From: Treponema sp.
GTDB taxonomy: Bacteria; Spirochaetota; Spirochaetia; Treponematales; Treponemataceae
Assembly (NCBI GenBank): GCA_024682655.1
Contig: JAIKYZ010000108.1
Span: 1 to 64,000 of the forward strand
Length of the DNA: 64,000 nt
Reading direction: 5' to 3'
Below the pieces are notes generated by a model, which had not been told where the DNA came from, made no database searches, and was given only the letters and a program-made list of their open reading frames with translations. Shown in pieces: positions 40,575-48,298 of the stretch. The position numbers and the translations under genes were made by a program. The first letter of the stretch is position 1; every line of letters starts with the position of its first letter.

Positions 40575-41603
40575 TTAAAGTTTTTCTGCGATATCGTAGA
40601 TTAATTTTTCGGATTTTTCCCAGCCTAAACATGGGTCAGTGATTGATTTTCCGTAACAGCCTTCGCCAATTTTCTGGGCACCGTCTTCTATGTAACTTTC
40701 AATCATAAAGCCCTTTACGATTTTCTTAATTCGGTCACTGTGGGCGCATGAATTCAAAACATCCATTACAATACGTGGCTGTTCAAATGGGTTTTTCTTT
40801 GAATTTGAGTGATTTGTGTCAATTATACAGGCTGGATTTTTAAGTTCACGTTCATCATAAGCATCGCAAAGGCGGATAAGATCTTCGTAATGATAATTCT
40901 GCTGATTGTTTCCGTGTTTATTTGTAGATCCACGGAGAATTGCATGTGTATCTGGATTTCCCTCTGAATGAACTTCCCATCCACGATAAATAAATGTGTG
41001 CTGATGCTGAGCTGCGTGAATTGCGTTCATCATAACTGCATAATCACCAGAAGTTGGATTTTTCATTCCGACTGGAACTTCTATTCCTGATGAAACCAAA
41101 CGGTGTTCCTGATTTTCTACCGAACGGGCGCCAACAGCAACATAACCCAAAAGATCGTCAAGGTACTGATAATTATCTGGATAAAGCATTTCATCGGCGA
41201 ATACAAAACCTGTTTCTTCTACAGCGCGCATATGCATACGGCGGCAGGCAATCAATCCTTTATACAAATCTGGCTTAGAATTTGGATCTGGCTGATGTAA
41301 CATTCCTTTGTATCCATCTCCTGTTGTTCTTGGCTTATTTGTGTAGATTCTAGGAACCATTAAAATTTTGTCCTGAACTTTTTCCTGAACTTTAGCAAGA
41401 CGATTCATGTAATCTAAAACTGCATCTTCATTATCTGCTGAACAAGGTCCTATAATCAAAAGTAATTTGTCAGATCTGCCTTCAAAAACAGATTTTACTT
41501 CTGCCCTCTTCTTTTCTACAATTTTACTTACCTTTCCTGTTACCGGAAATTCTTCTTTTACCTCTGCGGGAATAGCAAGCTTTCTTTCAAATTCCATATT
41601 CAT
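40575..41603 (-). CDS. 3-deoxy-7-phosphoheptulonate synthase (class I)
   Basis: 342 residues, class I-alpha (AroF/G/H type). It condenses PEP and erythrose-4-phosphate, the first step of the shikimate pathway. Visible motifs: IIGPCSADNEDAVLDY, VPRIYTNKPRTTGDGYKG, GARSVENQEHR, GMKNPTSGD, LRGSTNKHGNNQQNYH (usually LRGGxxPNY), IDTNHSNSKKNP. Feedback sensitivity cannot be told from sequence alone. It is the last gene of the aromatic operon, 175 bp beyond aroEKA, and ends beside a long repeat unit. Confidence 0.93.
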   Translation of the reverse strand: MNMEFERKLAIPAEVKEEFPVTGKVSKIVEKKRAEVKSVFEGRSDKLLLIIGPCSADNEDAVLDYMNRLAKVQEKVQDKILMVPRIYTNKPRTTGDGYKGMLHQPDPNSKPDLYKGLIACRRMHMRAVEETGFVFADEMLYPDNYQYLDDLLGYVAVGARSVENQEHRLVSSGIEVPVGMKNPTSGDYAVMMNAIHAAQHQHTFIYRGWEVHSEGNPDTHAILRGSTNKHGNNQQNYHYEDLIRLCDAYDERELKNPACIIDTNHSNSKKNPFEQPRIVMDVLNSCAHSDRIKKIVKGFMIESYIEDGAQKIGEGCYGKSITDPCLGWEKSEKLIYDIAEKL

Positions 41604-41640
41604 TTATGTTTTCTCCTGTTCTATAACCTTTTTGATTTAA

Positions 41641-41787
41641 GATTTTTTGTTTTATTGGATAAAATCTTCCTTAAAATCAAATACCGCAGGTTGTTTCAAC
41701 AACCGAGGATATTTGATTCGCAATATAAGAGTTTCGCAAGAAACTCTAAGTTAAATTGAATGGCGATATTTTAGCCATTCAATTTAA
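41641..41787. other. Cluster of hairpins between aroEKA and DAHP synthase
   Basis: Three perfect stems: GGTTGTT/AACAACC (41689-41704), AGAGTTTC/GAAACTCT with GCAA loop (41728-41747), and TTAAATTGAATGGC/GCCATTCAATTTAA (14 bp, 41751-41787). The last contains the aroEKA stop codon. None is followed by a T-tract on the minus strand, so processing or stability sites are likelier than termination. Confidence 0.6.
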
Positions 41788-44430
41788 ACCTTCTTTTTTT
41801 TCAATTTTAATTCCCAAACTTTTGATTACTTCAAAATATGATGGGAAACTTTTTTCTACGGCATGGGCATCGTCGATTTTTCCACCTGTTTTTGTTAGTA
41901 GAGTTGATAAAGCCATTACAATTCGATGATCGTTATATCCATGAATTATTTGATCTGGAGCGTGAATTTGATTTTTCTTAATTTCAATCTGATTTTCAGA
42001 ATAATTACTTTCAACCCCAAATTTTTTCAATTCGTCGCACATGATTTTTCCGCGATTACTTTCTTTAATTGCTAAACGCTTTGTACCTGTGAATATTCCT
42101 CCGTTATGGGTAGCAGCAAAAACAAAAAGAATTGGTCCTAAATCTGGACAATCTGAAATATCCAGAGTTGGACAAGTTTTTGTAAGTTGCTCAAACATTT
42201 CTTTATAAACCCGGTCTCCCTGTAAACTGTGATCATATAAGCCCTGGACTTTTACATCTCCACCTAAGCCATTAAAAACATCAAGAAAAGCAGCGTTAGA
42301 ATAATCACCTTCTACAGCAATATTTTTTGCTTTATATTTTTGATTTCCTTTGATTTCCAGAGTGGATTCATCTTTCCAATTAACCTCAACACCAAAATCA
42401 GCCATAGCCTGAATGGTTAGATCGATGTAAGGACGACTTTCTACAGGAGGTAATAATTTTATCTGACTGTCCCCCTGCAAAAGTGGAAGGATAAACAAAA
42501 GCCCCGTAATAAATTGACTGCTGATATTTCCTGCAACTTCATAAGTTCCGCTAGAAAAATTATTACCTTTTGTGTTGATTACTATTTTTTCTCCCTGACG
42601 TTCAAAAGAGATTCCATTTTTTGCACATAAATCTTCGTAAATTGACTGTGGCCTTGTCATCAAAACCGGAGCCCCGTAAAATTCGGAAATCTGACTGAAG
42701 TAAATTCCCATCGGGATGAAAAAACGGAGTGTTGAACCACTTTCGCGGCAGTTAAAGATTAGAGCTGAGGGGTCTGTCCCCATAGGATGCTGAGGGGTCT
42801 GTCCCCCAGGAATTTTAGGGGTCTGTCCCCCATGTTTAGCAGCAAAACCTGAAATCTTTACCCAATCAGGCCCCATCTGAACTTTTGCACCAAGATTTTT
42901 TACGCAATCCAATGTTGCAAGAATATCCTGGGAATATTCGATATTTGAAATTTCACTCTGTCCTTCAGAAAGGGCTGCGCAAATTATTGAACGGTGGGCC
43001 AAACTTTTAGACGGAGGAGCGCTCACCTGGCCTTTTGCTATTCCCGGTGAAATTGTAGCGATGTCGTCTTTGACATCATCCTCCAGGCCCGCAATTTGAA
43101 TGATTTGGTCTGCAATTTTTTCTGGGCCAATTCCACCCTTTACCTCAGCATCTGCACAAGCCTTATAAATTGGCAGCCTGTAATTATAAAGCCCACGGAT
43201 TTTTTCTGAACTATTTGCAGTTGGTCTGTCCTCTGTTGGCAATAATTCTTCCAATGGACGATTTATAAAGTAGATTTTTCCGTTTTTCTTGAGATTTTTT
43301 ACATTCTGTGGATTTAGAACCGCACCTCCTCCTGTTGAAATTACAGAGGAAGTTTTTTCAGAAAGTTGGGCAATAACTTGAGATTCCACTTTTCTAAAAT
43401 ATTCCTCGCCCTCTTTAGCAAAAATTTCGGAAATCTCTCGGCCTTCTACTTTTACTATTTCTGCATCCGAATCGATTAACTGACGATTTAGGAGTTTTGC
43501 AATTGCTTTTCCGACTGTTGTTTTGCCACAAGCAGGCATTCCAACCAGAACAATATTTTCTTTACGACCTAAGATTGTTTTGAAAATCTTATCAGCTTTT
43601 TGATTTTCGATTTTTTTATCAAAAAAGAACTCAGCCGCTTTGATTGCCTGGCCAACTAACATATAAAGTCCGCCTTCTGCCTTTAGACCACGTTTTTTGG
43701 CATCTAAAATCAAATTTGTGGAGTTTGGATTATAAATTGCATCAAGAACTCCTTCCAATTTTGGAAAATGCTCAAGATTAATCGGCTGATCATCACTTTT
43801 TGGAAACATTCCGCATGGAGTTGTGTTGATTATGATATTTGTTTCTTTTAGATTTTCTGCTTCCTGATAGGTGATAATTTTTATAGGGGTCTGTCCCCAA
43901 GATAATTCATTTTTACCTTCGGGGTCTGTCCCCTCAGCTTTTTCGGGGTCTGTCCCCTCGCCTTTTTCCATAGAAATCTTAGGGGTCTGTCCCCCAGGTC
44001 CCCCATGACGACTTACTTTTACAACCGAAGCACAACCCAAAGACTGAACCAGGGCACAGGCAGTTTTACTTGTTCCACCAGTTCCCAAAATCAATACATT
44101 TTTTCCTTTTACAGAAAGTTCCATTTTTTCCAGAAGAGATTTCATTCCGTAAAAATCTGTGTTGTAGCCGTACAATTTTCCATTTTTATTTACGATTGTA
44201 TTTACAGCCCCTATCAACTTTGCTGACTCATCAATTTCATCAAGATAGGGAATTACATCCTGCTTATAGGGAATTGTTACATTGATTGCCTTAAAATCAT
44301 GAAGCTTCATAAAAGCATCCAGTTTTTCTGGTGCAATTTCTTTTAGTTCATATTTATAATCCCCAATCAGATTGTGAATATCTTTTGAAAAGGAGTGACC
44401 TAAATGTTCACCAATTAAACCATATTCCAT
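41779..44430 (-). CDS. Fused shikimate dehydrogenase-kinase-EPSP synthase
   Basis: 883 residues with three enzymes of the shikimate pathway. Residues 1-285, shikimate dehydrogenase: GEHLGHSFSKDIHN, AINVTIPYKQ, NAD(P) loop ILGTGGTSKTA. Residues about 290-450, shikimate kinase: P-loop GMPACGKTT (297-305), STGGGAVL, RPLEEL. Residues about 465-883, EPSP synthase: APPSKSLAHRSI, CRESGSTLRFF, NDHRIVMAL. Two repeat-derived inserts are present: residues about 142-182 after the dehydrogenase Rossmann strand (four cores), and about 531-555 in EPSP synthase (three cores). All remain in frame. It follows aroC by 3 bp. Confidence 0.93.
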   Translation of the reverse strand: MEYGLIGEHLGHSFSKDIHNLIGDYKYELKEIAPEKLDAFMKLHDFKAINVTIPYKQDVIPYLDEIDESAKLIGAVNTIVNKNGKLYGYNTDFYGMKSLLEKMELSVKGKNVLILGTGGTSKTACALVQSLGCASVVKVSRHGGPGGQTPKISMEKGEGTDPEKAEGTDPEGKNELSWGQTPIKIITYQEAENLKETNIIINTTPCGMFPKSDDQPINLEHFPKLEGVLDAIYNPNSTNLILDAKKRGLKAEGGLYMLVGQAIKAAEFFFDKKIENQKADKIFKTILGRKENIVLVGMPACGKTTVGKAIAKLLNRQLIDSDAEIVKVEGREISEIFAKEGEEYFRKVESQVIAQLSEKTSSVISTGGGAVLNPQNVKNLKKNGKIYFINRPLEELLPTEDRPTANSSEKIRGLYNYRLPIYKACADAEVKGGIGPEKIADQIIQIAGLEDDVKDDIATISPGIAKGQVSAPPSKSLAHRSIICAALSEGQSEISNIEYSQDILATLDCVKNLGAKVQMGPDWVKISGFAAKHGGQTPKIPGGQTPQHPMGTDPSALIFNCRESGSTLRFFIPMGIYFSQISEFYGAPVLMTRPQSIYEDLCAKNGISFERQGEKIVINTKGNNFSSGTYEVAGNISSQFITGLLFILPLLQGDSQIKLLPPVESRPYIDLTIQAMADFGVEVNWKDESTLEIKGNQKYKAKNIAVEGDYSNAAFLDVFNGLGGDVKVQGLYDHSLQGDRVYKEMFEQLTKTCPTLDISDCPDLGPILFVFAATHNGGIFTGTKRLAIKESNRGKIMCDELKKFGVESNYSENQIEIKKNQIHAPDQIIHGYNDHRIVMALSTLLTKTGGKIDDAHAVEKSFPSYFEVIKSLGIKIEKKEGLN
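42769..42830 (-). repeat. Three core repeats inside the EPSP synthase part
   Basis: Cores at 42769, 42794 and 42818, spaced 24-25 bp, all in the gene's sense orientation. They are read as GTDPS, GQTPQ and GQTPK, so two frames are used within 62 bp. Confidence 0.93.
43886..43994 (-). repeat. Four core repeats inside the shikimate dehydrogenase part
   Basis: Cores at 43886, 43921, 43945 and 43982. They add about 40 residues, with GQTPI, GTDPE, GTDPE and GQTPK, to a loop after the NADP-binding strand. Confidence 0.93.
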
Positions 44431-44433
44431 TTA

Positions 44434-45534
44434 TTAATTATCCCCCTGAGCAAAATAATCACTTCCGTAACGGCCTAAAAGCGCGTCATATAAAACTAAA
44501 GCCGCTACACTGTCCACTACAACACGCGCTCGGTGGATAATTGCAGGATCATGACGACCTTGAATCTGAAGTTTTGCATTTTCTTTACTATTCATATTGA
44601 TTGTATCCTGCTCTTTATAGATTGAAGGCGTTGGTTTTACAGCACAACGGAAAGTAATTGGCATTCCATTTGAAATACCTCCATTAATTCCGCCATTATT
44701 ATTTGTACTTGTAATAACTTTTCCATCTTCAATTCTAAAAGAATCATTAAATTCACTGCCCTTATGATCAACTAAATCAAAAGCGGCCCCGAACTGTACA
44801 CCTTTTACAGCAGGAACACTAAAAAGTGCATAAGAAAGCTGACCTTCCAAAGTTCCAAACCAAGGTTCACCTAATCCTGCAGGAAGTCCTACAACAAGGC
44901 TTTCAAGAACGCCCCCAACACTGTCACCTTCGGCAGCAATTTTTTCCATGTAAGAGTGCATTTTTTCAGCCTGATTTTTATCTAAAACCGCAAATGTTGA
45001 ATTATTCAGATAATCAATATCCTCAGAAAGATTTTCAAAATCACGGTCTTTTATTCCACCGCAACTTTTAATATGACTTGCAATTTTTATACCTTTTTTT
45101 GCCAGTTGTGGAATTACAATTCCCCCAGCCGCAACCAGAGCCGCAGTAATTCTTCCAGAAAAATGACCACCACCACGATAATCTTGAAATCCATGATATT
45201 TTACATTTGCAGTATAATCTGCATGACCTGGACGAGCTAACATTGCAGTTTTTTCGTAATCTTTACTGTGTTGAACAGAATTTGGAATTAAAATTGTAAG
45301 AGGAGTTCCTGTAGTTTTATCATTAAAAACTCCACTAGCCAGAATATACTGATCTTTTTCTACACGAGCAGTAGAGATTTTTCCACTTGGACGACGTAAA
45401 TCCAACTGATGATTAATAAAATCATTATCAACAATCATACCAGGTGTAAGACCGTCTAAAACAACTCCAATATAAGGACCGTGACTTTCTCCAAAAATAG
45501 TAACTGTAAGATTTTCTCCAAGTGAATTTTTCAT
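44434..45534 (-). CDS. aroC: Chorismate synthase
   Basis: 366 residues from the ATG at 45534, which has GGAG 6 nt upstream; the ATG at 45552 is not supported. It converts EPSP to chorismate with reduced FMN. Conserved blocks: FGESHGPYIGVVLDG, RRPSGKISTARVEKD, HADYTANVKY, RGGGHFSGRITAALVAAG, and the C-terminal GRHDPAIIHRARVVVDS. It is between aroB (21 bp) and aroEKA (3 bp) in the operon. Confidence 0.96.
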   Translation of the reverse strand: MKNSLGENLTVTIFGESHGPYIGVVLDGLTPGMIVDNDFINHQLDLRRPSGKISTARVEKDQYILASGVFNDKTTGTPLTILIPNSVQHSKDYEKTAMLARPGHADYTANVKYHGFQDYRGGGHFSGRITAALVAAGGIVIPQLAKKGIKIASHIKSCGGIKDRDFENLSEDIDYLNNSTFAVLDKNQAEKMHSYMEKIAAEGDSVGGVLESLVVGLPAGLGEPWFGTLEGQLSYALFSVPAVKGVQFGAAFDLVDHKGSEFNDSFRIEDGKVITSTNNNGGINGGISNGMPITFRCAVKPTPSIYKEQDTINMNSKENAKLQIQGRHDPAIIHRARVVVDSVAALVLYDALLGRYGSDYFAQGDN

Positions 45535-45555
45535 ATCTGACTCCAAAAACAATTT

Positions 45556-46566
45556 TTATTTATCGATAACCATTTCAAGTTTGCTTCTAAGTTCCTGTAA
45601 AGACATATCTTTTTGCTCAAAAGTTCCGATTTCATTGACATAGATAGTATGAATAGAATCTTTACCAGCCTTTTTATCATGTTTGATTGCATTACAAGCA
45701 TCATCGATATTTATTTTACAAGAAGTAGGAAGACCTAATTTTTTCAAAAGAGGAATTAATTCAGAACGAACTTTCTCTGAACACATTGGAATCATTCCAA
45801 GAGCAACACATTCACCATGATAAAATTTTTCATCACAATTTGTTTCGATGCCATGGCCTAAAGTATGACCAAAATTTAATACACGGCGAAGACCGCTTTC
45901 TTTTTCATCAGCTTCTACAACCCGGGCTTTAATTTCGATTGATTTTTGAACCAAAAGTTCAACCTTTTCAAAAGGATCCTGAATTTTAAATAATTCAACA
46001 GTATCTTTATCAAAAGTCATTGCCATCTTGAGGGCTTCAGAAAGGCCATTTGCAATCTGACGCTTTGGAAGAGTTTTTAAAAGATCTGCATCAATCAAAA
46101 CTTTTTTAGGCTGATGAAAAGCACCAACGATATTTTTTACGCCATTAAAATTTACACCAGTTTTACCGCCAACAGAAGAATCAACCTGGGACAAAACTGT
46201 GGTTGGAATATTATAAAAATCAAGACCGCGCATATAACTTGCGGCAACAAACCCCGCTAAATCACCAACAATTCCGCCACCAACAGCAACAACACAATCA
46301 CCACGGGTAAAATTATTATCAAGCATCAATTTAAGAAGCTTCTGCCAGCTTTCCAGACTTTTATTATCTTCTCCACTTTGAATAAGACCAATCACCGCTT
46401 CTTTTGATTTATCAGCCACAAATTGAGCATATTCTTTTGGAACTCCAGAATCAGTTACAACTAAAACTTTGCGATTTAAATTTAATTCCTGGTCAACTCT
46501 AGAAAGAAGACCTTTTTCTATAACAACATCATAACTGTGCTGACCTAAATTCACATGAACAATCAT
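45556..46566 (-). CDS. aroB: 3-dehydroquinate synthase
   Basis: 336 residues, slightly shorter than E. coli AroB (362). It converts DAHP to 3-dehydroquinate with NAD and zinc. NAD motif GGGIVGDLAGFVAASYMRG, substrate motif PTTVLSQVDSSVGGKTGVN, zinc ligands in LNFGHTLGHGIE and NCDEKFYHGECVALGM. It lies 21 bp after pheA. The next step, 3-dehydroquinate dehydratase (aroD/aroQ), is not in the window. Confidence 0.96.
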   Translation of the reverse strand: MIVHVNLGQHSYDVVIEKGLLSRVDQELNLNRKVLVVTDSGVPKEYAQFVADKSKEAVIGLIQSGEDNKSLESWQKLLKLMLDNNFTRGDCVVAVGGGIVGDLAGFVAASYMRGLDFYNIPTTVLSQVDSSVGGKTGVNFNGVKNIVGAFHQPKKVLIDADLLKTLPKRQIANGLSEALKMAMTFDKDTVELFKIQDPFEKVELLVQKSIEIKARVVEADEKESGLRRVLNFGHTLGHGIETNCDEKFYHGECVALGMIPMCSEKVRSELIPLLKKLGLPTSCKINIDDACNAIKHDKKAGKDSIHTIYVNEIGTFEQKDMSLQELRSKLEMVIDK

Positions 46567-46587: not shown

Positions 46588-47688
46588 TTATTTAATCTGA
46601 TCAGTATGGAGATTGTAAGAACCCAGAACTTTTAGCATCTTACATTTATCTTCCAGATCTTTAATCATTTTTTGACCAGCCTCAGATGAAATTTTACCTT
46701 CAGCTTCTACATAAAAATAATATTCCCACTGGGAGTTTTTAAGAGGGCGGCTTTTTACAACCCTCATGTTATAACCATTATTACTGATAGCACTTAAAGC
46801 TTTTACCAAAGAACCCGATTCATTTTTAACGACAAACATTAAGATGAAAGTGCTGTAATCTTCAGAGTTGATTACATTTTCTTTAACCTTGGAAAAAACT
46901 GCAAAACGAGTTGTATTAGAAGAATTTTCGTTGATTTTTTCTTGAATAACTTCCAGCCCGTATAATTTGGCTGTTTCCAGACTGGCAATAGCAGCGATAG
47001 AACTGTCCCCCATATCAGCAACTTCTTTAGCGGCACGGGCAGTATTACTTGCAGATTTTGATTCCAGATTATGATCGCGAATAAAAGTAGCACATTGATC
47101 CAAAGCCTGAGGATGACTGATAACAGTTTTGATATCTTGGAGTTTTGATCCAGGAAGGGCCAGAAGATTTTGAGTTACGGACATGGAATAAACGCCGTTT
47201 ACATAAAGTTTTCCGGTGAACATTAAATCTGTTACTTGAGAAACTTCACCAGCAAATGAATTTTCAATAGGAAGGACAGCAAGATCACAATCGCCTTTTT
47301 CGACAGATTCATAGGCGGACTGGAAATCGGCATAGGGAATTAAAACACCGTCTGGGAATATTTTTTTAGCAGCAATATTTGCAAAAGCCCCTTCAATTCC
47401 GCTGTAGGCAATTTTTGCACCTTCAAGGAGTTTATGCTGATATTTTTTTGAGATATCCATCAAATCCTGGATAAACTGAACATAATAAGGCTGAAGATTA
47501 AGATTTTTGATGTAGCCTACACAACGTTCGATAACCTGTTTTTCGCGAGAAGAATCAAAAATTGGCATACCATTTTTCTTTTTATAATCAGCAACATTTA
47601 CAACAAGATTCATACGTTCTTCGAAAAGTTCAGCCATTTTCTTATCAATTTTATTAATACCATCGCGTGCTTTTTCCAGTTCAGTCAT
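46588..47688 (-). CDS. pheA: Chorismate mutase / prephenate dehydratase
   Basis: 366 residues, bifunctional P-protein. Residues 1-90 are an AroQ chorismate mutase (RDGINKIDKKMAELFEERMNLV); about 95-270 are prephenate dehydratase (YSGIEGAFANIAA, PIENSFAGEV, SNTARAAKEV, NTTRFAVFS); 280-360 are an ACT domain (LMFVVKNESGSLVKALSAIS) for phenylalanine feedback. It is the first gene of the aromatic operon. Its 230-bp leader holds a Phe-rich leader peptide and an attenuator. RBS GGAGG, 5 nt. Confidence 0.96.
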   Translation of the reverse strand: MTELEKARDGINKIDKKMAELFEERMNLVVNVADYKKKNGMPIFDSSREKQVIERCVGYIKNLNLQPYYVQFIQDLMDISKKYQHKLLEGAKIAYSGIEGAFANIAAKKIFPDGVLIPYADFQSAYESVEKGDCDLAVLPIENSFAGEVSQVTDLMFTGKLYVNGVYSMSVTQNLLALPGSKLQDIKTVISHPQALDQCATFIRDHNLESKSASNTARAAKEVADMGDSSIAAIASLETAKLYGLEVIQEKINENSSNTTRFAVFSKVKENVINSEDYSTFILMFVVKNESGSLVKALSAISNNGYNMRVVKSRPLKNSQWEYYFYVEAEGKISSEAGQKMIKDLEDKCKMLKVLGSYNLHTDQIK

Positions 47689-47743: not shown

Positions 47744-47773
47744 AAGGCCCTACCCGATAAAGAGTAGAGCCTT
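47744..47773 (-). terminator. Attenuator (intrinsic terminator) of pheA
   Basis: On the minus strand AAGGC-T-CTAC pairs with GTAG-G-GCCTT (9 pairs, one mismatch), then TTTTTTATTTTTT. It lies between the leader peptide and pheA. Its 5' arm overlaps the antiterminator, so the two structures exclude each other. Confidence 0.88.
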
Positions 47774-47833
47774 CTTTCACTTATATCAAAAACCTTGCCT
47801 TTTTACGTTTCGATATTCGTTCTACGCTTTATC
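47756..47833 (-). promoter_or_regulatory. Antiterminator pairing in the pheA leader
   Basis: The RNA segment GATAAAGCGTAGA (47833-47821) is complementary to TCTACTCTTTATC (47768-47756) at 12 of 13 positions. The second segment includes the TCTAC of the terminator's 5' arm. The first segment overlaps the leader stop codon (47829-47831), so a ribosome finishing the leader would cover it. Confidence 0.82.
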
Positions 47834-47921
47834 TAGCCTTCCTTGACTTATTAAAGCCATAAAAGGAAAAAGCCTCAAAAGAGAAGAATGAATATGATAC
47901 AAAGTTGAATGAAATTTTCAT
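47829..47921 (-). CDS. Phe-rich leader peptide of the pheA operon
   Basis: 30 codons, ATG at 47921 to TAA at 47829. Begins MKISFNFVSYSFFSF. Phe is at residues 5, 7, 12, 13, 15, 18, 20 and 23, Tyr at 10 and 21: eight Phe in 19 residues. Its place between a strong promoter and the attenuator, with the stop codon in the antiterminator, matches the E. coli pheL design. No Shine-Dalgarno is seen; the predicted 5' end is only about 7 nt before the ATG. Confidence 0.8.
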   Translation of the reverse strand: MKISFNFVSYSFFSFEAFSFYGFNKSRKAR

Positions 47922-47934
47922 AGTTTATGATTTT

Positions 47935-47963
47935 AATATATCTGCATAGCCCTTTAATGTCAA
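47935..47963 (-). promoter_or_regulatory. Promoter of the pheA-aro operon
   Basis: On the minus strand TTGACA (47963-47958), exactly 17 bp, TATATT (47940-47935). A near-consensus sigma-70 promoter, giving a start near 47928. Confidence 0.85.
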
Positions 47964-48042
47964 TAAAAAGACAGTGATTTTTTAAATTTTACTTACTTTC
48001 TTTAGTATAATTAAAAGTGTGGTATAAGGAGGAGGAAATGTT

Positions 48043-48286
48043 GGGGACAGACCTCTATTTTTCTTTGGGGTCTGTCCCCAACTATAAATAAAATCCTTTT
48101 AGAATAATTTTTAAAGGGGACAGACCCCTCAATATCTGGGGACAGATCTCTAAATATTGTGAGTGAAATTACTTAATAACAGTGGAAATATTAAAAAATT
48201 GGGGACAGACCTCTGTTTTTCTTTGGGGTCTGTCCCCAACTATAAATAAAATCCTTTTAGAATAATTTTTAAAGGGGACAGACCCC
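48043..48286. repeat. Cluster of core repeats with a 92-bp duplication
   Basis: Cores: plus at 48043, 48116, 48138, 48201 and 48274; inverted at 48067 and 48225. About 48041-48132 and 48199-48290 are a direct repeat of about 92 bp with one difference seen. Each copy holds an inverted core pair (GGGGACAGACCTC with GGGGTCTGTCCCC) that can form a long hairpin. This and the next unit fill the 48030-48382 gap; no gene seen. Confidence 0.9.
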
Positions 48287-48298
48287 TCAATTTAGACA

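Follow-up and report, generated by a model that had tools for sequence, protein, structure and literature searches.

In Escherichia coli, pheA attenuation uses the Phe-rich leader peptide PheL (PMC11802643). Antiterminator and terminator structures compete there, with pheA downstream. In Corynebacterium glutamicum the aroR-aroF attenuator has a Phe/Tyr leader (Phe-Tyr-Phe in aroR) ahead of a DAHP synthase gene (PMC11802643, PMC4046766). Furthermore, the motif uORFC-13-1 was proposed as a Phe-reading uORF with a terminator before the DAHP synthase gene aroF in Acholeplasma; it is described from 24 Acholeplasma and environmental examples with at least one Phe coded, and is compared here by description only (PMC8632094). 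According to the passages on this point in Naville and Gautheret 2010 (PMC2965389), the leader-peptide systems demonstrated so far came, to those authors' knowledge, from Proteobacteria and Actinobacteria alone, to which Firmicutes were added. Leader genes in Spirochaetales were counted by Korolev et al. 2016, in whose main text the words "Treponema" and "phenylalanine" are absent (PMC4833913). In the literature searched, a scope mostly without subscription papers, we found no leader-peptide attenuator described for a spirochaete, in agreement with the initial annotation, whose author knew of no such description in this group. The locus analyzed here probably represents a known kind of switch, working like enteric pheL attenuation, in a phylum for which no description was found.

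The window, a stretch of 64,000 nucleotides from a Treponema sp. contig (JAIKYZ010000108.1), carries the locus on its minus strand, to which all coordinates of the locus refer. The promoter (47935-47963) consists of a -35 box TTGACA (47963-47958), a spacer of 17 nt and a -10 box TATATT (47940-47935), with 11 of 12 consensus matches. It is followed by a leader ORF of 30 codons (47921-47829) without a Shine-Dalgarno sequence, which encodes the 30 aa peptide MKISFNFVSYSFFSFEAFSFYGFNKSRKAR with 2 Tyr and 8 Phe, all of the latter within residues 5-23, and ends with the stop codon TAA (47831-47829). Arm 1 of a putative protector hairpin (47876-47886) covers three of the eight Phe codons (FFSF core). 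The upstream arm of the antiterminator, arm 2 (47821-47833, GATAAAGCGTAGA), includes the leader stop codon and pairs at 12 of 13 positions with the downstream arm, arm 3 (47756-47768, TCTACTCTTTATC). Arm 3 is shared with the 5' arm and loop of an intrinsic terminator formed by arms 3 and 4 (47777-47740; 16 bp, loop of 6, T-run), located 51 nt ahead of pheA on the same strand. The 196-nt leader RNA had a folding energy of -52.6 kcal/mol (z -4.2), and none of 200 shuffles was as good. All parts named in the initial annotation were recovered: the near-consensus promoter, the leader of 30 codons with its 8 Phe, the 12/13 antiterminator enclosing the leader stop, and the terminator with a shared arm before pheA.

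The first gene of the operon, pheA (46588-47688), encodes a chorismate mutase-prephenate dehydratase (Pfam CM_2 and PDT). It is followed on the same strand by aroB (3-dehydroquinate synthase, 45556-46566), aroC (chorismate synthase, 44434-45552) and an aroE-aroK-aroA triple fusion (41779-44430), whose single protein of 883 aa joins the N-domain of shikimate dehydrogenase to shikimate kinase and EPSP synthase. After a gap of 175 nt follows a DAHP synthase gene (40575-41603), which, from gene order and strand, is probably the last aromatic gene of the pheA operon; this probable membership goes beyond the initial annotation. We take the gene set of the operon to be complete for the route to phenylpyruvate except for 3-dehydroquinase. 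Two strong inverted repeats lie in the gap itself (41604-41778), one perfect over 14 nt and the other of 21 nt at 81%; neither has a T-run.

The presence of shikimate genes and a DAHP synthase in the operon, the lack of a Shine-Dalgarno sequence before the leader and the host, a member of a spirochaete family, distinguish the locus from E. coli pheL-pheA. It differs from C. glutamicum aroR-aroF by phylum and by leader peptide. The Rfam model for Phe_leader (RF01859) scored 21.9 bits (E 0.19), below its gathering score of 55. Within this genome, no amino-acid-rich leader with a terminator was found upstream of trpE and hisG, nor upstream of the second DAHP synthase (contig C83).

In DNA rich in T, a high Phe content is weak evidence by itself. 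When the window leader was dinucleotide-shuffled 2000 times, 37 of the products had at least 8 Phe, and 12 of the 378 short ATG frames in the window, the leader counted among them, were equally Phe-rich. For several leaders the Phe count was explained by T-rich composition; that of L085 was reached by 958 of 2000 shuffles. Promoter-like sites in the region were not commoner than expected (3 found, shuffle mean 3.6), and terminator-like sites were (3 found, shuffle mean 0.7). Since Phe richness alone is only modest evidence, the relatives were used to decide.

PheA proteins were searched in 200 genomes of the genus (185 with a match), 195 of the family and 241 of the order, these sets overlapping, and the upstream DNA was inspected for a subset of the matches. 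The named close relatives are Treponema or Spirochaetia metagenome assemblies, e.g. UBA4267. In the genus, a Phe-rich leader and a terminator were present ahead of 16 of the 21 chorismate mutase-PDT genes (L087 and L094 being cut by a contig end), and five loci had no leader (L088, L098, L099, L100, L101). Among the PDT-only loci both were found upstream in 20 of 26; L104, L111, L121, L123 and L127 had no leader and L126 was too short to judge. Three further genera of the family carried leader and terminator at five loci (L151-L155), and loci L162 and L163 of other genera of the family had no leader. No leader was found at the 12 pheA loci from other families of the order, where pheA was mostly located close behind an upstream gene.

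The genus also contains fusions of prephenate dehydratase and DAHP synthase in two different orders (L128-L149). A Phe-rich leader preceded 3 of the 18 loci in the group of DAHP synthase-PDT fusions and other loci (L139, L143 and L144 in genomes G023, G016 and G191; L138 and L141 were unjudgeable), and none of the five PDT-DAHP synthase fusions. The leaders of L139 and L144, which read MTFNFSFKSFNFFSFSFFSFAFSAFF..., were accompanied by a terminator-like repeat. The pheA loci L088 and L104, both without the leader, share a palindrome, ACCTACTATGTCAATAGGTA, close to the start of the gene; it may be a repressor site that replaces the attenuator.

The initial annotation had proposed to look for conserved Phe codons and paired bases in relatives; in this comparison both the leader frame and the paired bases turned out to be kept. 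Judged from sequence, such conservation is strong evidence for the attenuator reading. Taken singly, the features are weak evidence; their combination, conserved as it is in relatives, is not due to chance.

When 30-codon leaders of the PDT group were aligned, all 18 had Phe at codons 8, 12, 13, 16, 18 and 20, with TTT and TTC interchanged at codons 12, 13 and 18. Pairwise codon differences over codons 1-24 of this group were synonymous in 308 cases vs 905 not, so the peptide is overall free to vary, with conservation centred on the Phe codons. Close leaders differed in length by 3, 6 or 9 nt. Leader L113 is frameshifted within a T-run, perhaps through misassembly, perhaps because the frame has truly been lost. 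Overall, the leader gene appears to be read in frame.

In some leaders Tyr codons accompany those for Phe. Four chorismate mutase-PDT leaders contained SFYFYFYF or SFYYYFYF runs (L092, L095, L096, L097), the aroC leader of L213 had 3 Phe and 6 Tyr, and the window leader itself has 2 Tyr, all of which would fit a leader that senses Phe and Tyr together and not Phe alone. We consider joint sensing rather unlikely, since Phe predominates in the window leader and the PDT set and since aroR of C. glutamicum, with Phe-Tyr-Phe, is reported in PMC11802643 to respond to Phe only.

The preferred reading, a leader that responds to Phe, depends on competing folds. Of the 39 complete leaders, 35 have their stop codon inside arm 2; for L124 and L154, a wider search found arms just upstream of the stop, with pairings of -15.5 and -17.4 kcal/mol. 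Two alignments were compared: A2 with 20 rows of the PDT group, and A3 with 15 rows of chorismate mutase-PDT and other loci. Both alignments leave out L091 and L151 of the 37 distinct rows, and rows of the L102 type occur in A2 only; the identical rows L086 and L090 were dropped. The A2 antiterminator was 94.9% paired vs at most 53.5% in slid controls, with A-U/G-C exchange and with five cells changed on both sides, a number reached by none of 500 shuffles. The A2 terminator was 97.1% paired and its variation was no better than that of shuffles. In A3 the antiterminator was 77.8% paired vs at most 52.8% in slid controls; one of its pairs alternates between A-U and G-C (7 and 6 rows), and its covariation score was 0.128, which one slid control nearly equalled (0.126). 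Here the terminator was 97.1% paired with four pairs changed on both sides. When arms were swapped among 12 representatives, own pairs had a mean of -15.8 vs -10.2 kcal/mol for swapped pairs, and the own arm 3 was the best partner of arm 2 in 8 of 12.

For the folding predictions a ribosome was modelled as covering 14 nt from the first base of a codon, and the antiterminator probability was taken before arm 4. A ribosome at the last Phe codon gave a predicted probability above 0.5 in 34 of 39 leaders; for one at the stop the value fell below 0.1 in 33 of 39. For the window leader the model gave 0.03 without a ribosome and 0.99 for a stall at either the first or the last Phe codon, and with the ribosome at the stop 0.00, in line with the earlier proposal that a Phe stall would free the antiterminator and a finished leader would cover it. 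Without a ribosome more than half of arm 2 paired back to the leader in 27 of 39 leaders (64% of arm 2 in the window leader), and the antiterminator was predicted to form even then in 8 of 39. The protector hairpin was absent in the SFYFYFYF clade and in L151, so an untranslated leader might give readthrough there. At equilibrium the terminator won in nearly every state; the choice must therefore be kinetic and made during transcription, as it likewise is in enteric attenuators.

The element is very probably a ribosome-mediated transcription attenuator that reads the charging of Phe-tRNA. The traits of such a leader-peptide attenuator are found here: a short ORF, conserved in relatives, with many codons for the amino acid that the pathway produces, mutually exclusive antiterminator and terminator structures with a common arm, and a geometry and predicted folding in which a stall would leave arm 2 free and a ribosome at the stop would cover it. 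From the observed pairing and geometry we infer the following course of translation, stalling and termination in the cell. Transcription would start near the leader ATG and a ribosome would enter the leader at once. If Phe-tRNA is scarce, the ribosome would stall on the Phe codons and open the protector hairpin of arms 1 and 2; the freed arm 2 would pair with arm 3 before arm 4 exists, no terminator would form, and RNA polymerase would proceed into pheA, aroB, aroC, aroEKA and probably the DAHP synthase gene. If Phe-tRNA is ample, the ribosome would reach the stop codon inside arm 2 and cover this arm, and the terminator of arms 3 and 4 would end transcription. In the case of no translation, arm 2 would be held by arm 1 and the terminator would form as well.

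A covariance model, R1, was built from 33 rows of alignment A1. It matched 42 places in 39 of the 200 genus genomes, 40 of them located before pheA, DAHP synthase or aroC; among places not used in building, 11 of 13 had this position. Seven places were not known before: three ahead of DAHP synthase (G119, G120 and G124), one ahead of aroC (G092, leader MKKTFYAYSFYYYYFSPVR), one ahead of pheA (G093) and two plain terminators. The latter, second places in G002 and G003 near other genes, were rejected as examples of the element. Two of the leaders ahead of DAHP synthase, e.g. MNKLFNFVYFSFFSFKAFSFYYFSNLKIAR, resemble the window leader. In the window genome, DAHP synthase stands at the end of the pheA operon, unlike in G119, G120 and G124, where it has its own upstream element. 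R1 did not match the leaders of the fusion loci L139, L143 and L144. It matched 4 of 74 genomes from other genera of the family and, in a search run without a positive control, none of 80 order genomes searched out of 148. Relatives carry the element before DAHP synthase and aroC, and one clade mixes Phe and Tyr codons, neither of which was part of the initial annotation.

These positions bear on a different explanation. By this, T-rich DNA produces the Phe frame incidentally, and the terminator is part of an RNA switch to which an effector or protein binds, such as a riboswitch, a T-box or the target of a leader-binding protein. The Phe counts near composition in several leaders would agree with it. 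It is nevertheless highly improbable, as frame, Phe positions and the stop-in-arm geometry are conserved, length changes preserve the frame, the element stands before three kinds of aromatic genes, and the window has no Rfam match at gathering scores except a tRNA (the best match below threshold by bits was PyrR, with 30.5 of 54 needed). A mere terminator after an upstream transcript, without regulation, would explain the strong hairpin and its T-run and is scarcely credible for a structure that shares the strand of pheA, ends 51 nt short of this gene and has its own promoter upstream and a conserved competing pairing.

Upstream of the leader ATG, 27 of 44 leaders have a promoter with at least 9 of 12 matches that ends 6-13 nt away, vs 146 of 2200 shuffles. 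With -5 kcal/mol as the limit, 38 of 44 leaders lack a Shine-Dalgarno pairing, which 31 of 39 downstream gene starts have; leaders of the SFYFYFYF clade have a GGAGG. In the window leader the promoter ends 13 nt before the ATG, and we infer a 5' UTR of about 7 nt, predicted for a transcription start at the usual distance. Most leaders, including that of the window, look leaderless or close to it, which again goes beyond the initial annotation.

In Leptospira, also a spirochaete, many mRNAs are leaderless (PMC5243855), and among actinobacteria Streptomyces is known to have leader peptides of this type (PMC8079986). With some reservation we favor the view that the Treponema family has a lineage-specific regulon of leaderless Phe attenuators (Phe/Tyr in one clade). 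Their start codon would coincide with the transcription start or follow it by a few bases, so that the end of the nascent RNA may take up a ribosome with no need of a Shine-Dalgarno sequence. The element would stand before whichever gene heads the aromatic operon, be it pheA, DAHP synthase, a DAHP synthase-PDT fusion or aroC. Leaderless leader genes, known from actinobacteria, are thereby suggested to drive attenuators in a second phylum. A spirochaete family would be added to leader-peptide attenuation, along with a regulon, the covariance model that describes it and predictions that are clear, and aromatic synthesis in Treponema gains a specific regulatory hypothesis.

An operator over the -35 box was considered and rejected. 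Palindromes similar to TGTTTCTATTGACAGAAACA occur in some leader promoters and at trpE, and a 6-of-7 palindrome was present in 30 of 44 leaders vs 50.6% of shuffles. TTTCTATTGACA, also considered as an operator, occurs in the window at chance frequency (19 found vs 16.4 expected).

Additionally, a dispersed near-palindrome, GGGACAGACCCC, is present in the window in 46 copies (5886-62532) vs 0.01 expected. The copies are often paired or clustered beside genes, such as two 98-nt copies at 48036-48291. Seven copies are located inside the aroE-aroK-aroA coding sequence (42769-42829 and 43886-43993), where they are read as GQTP/GTDP peptides.
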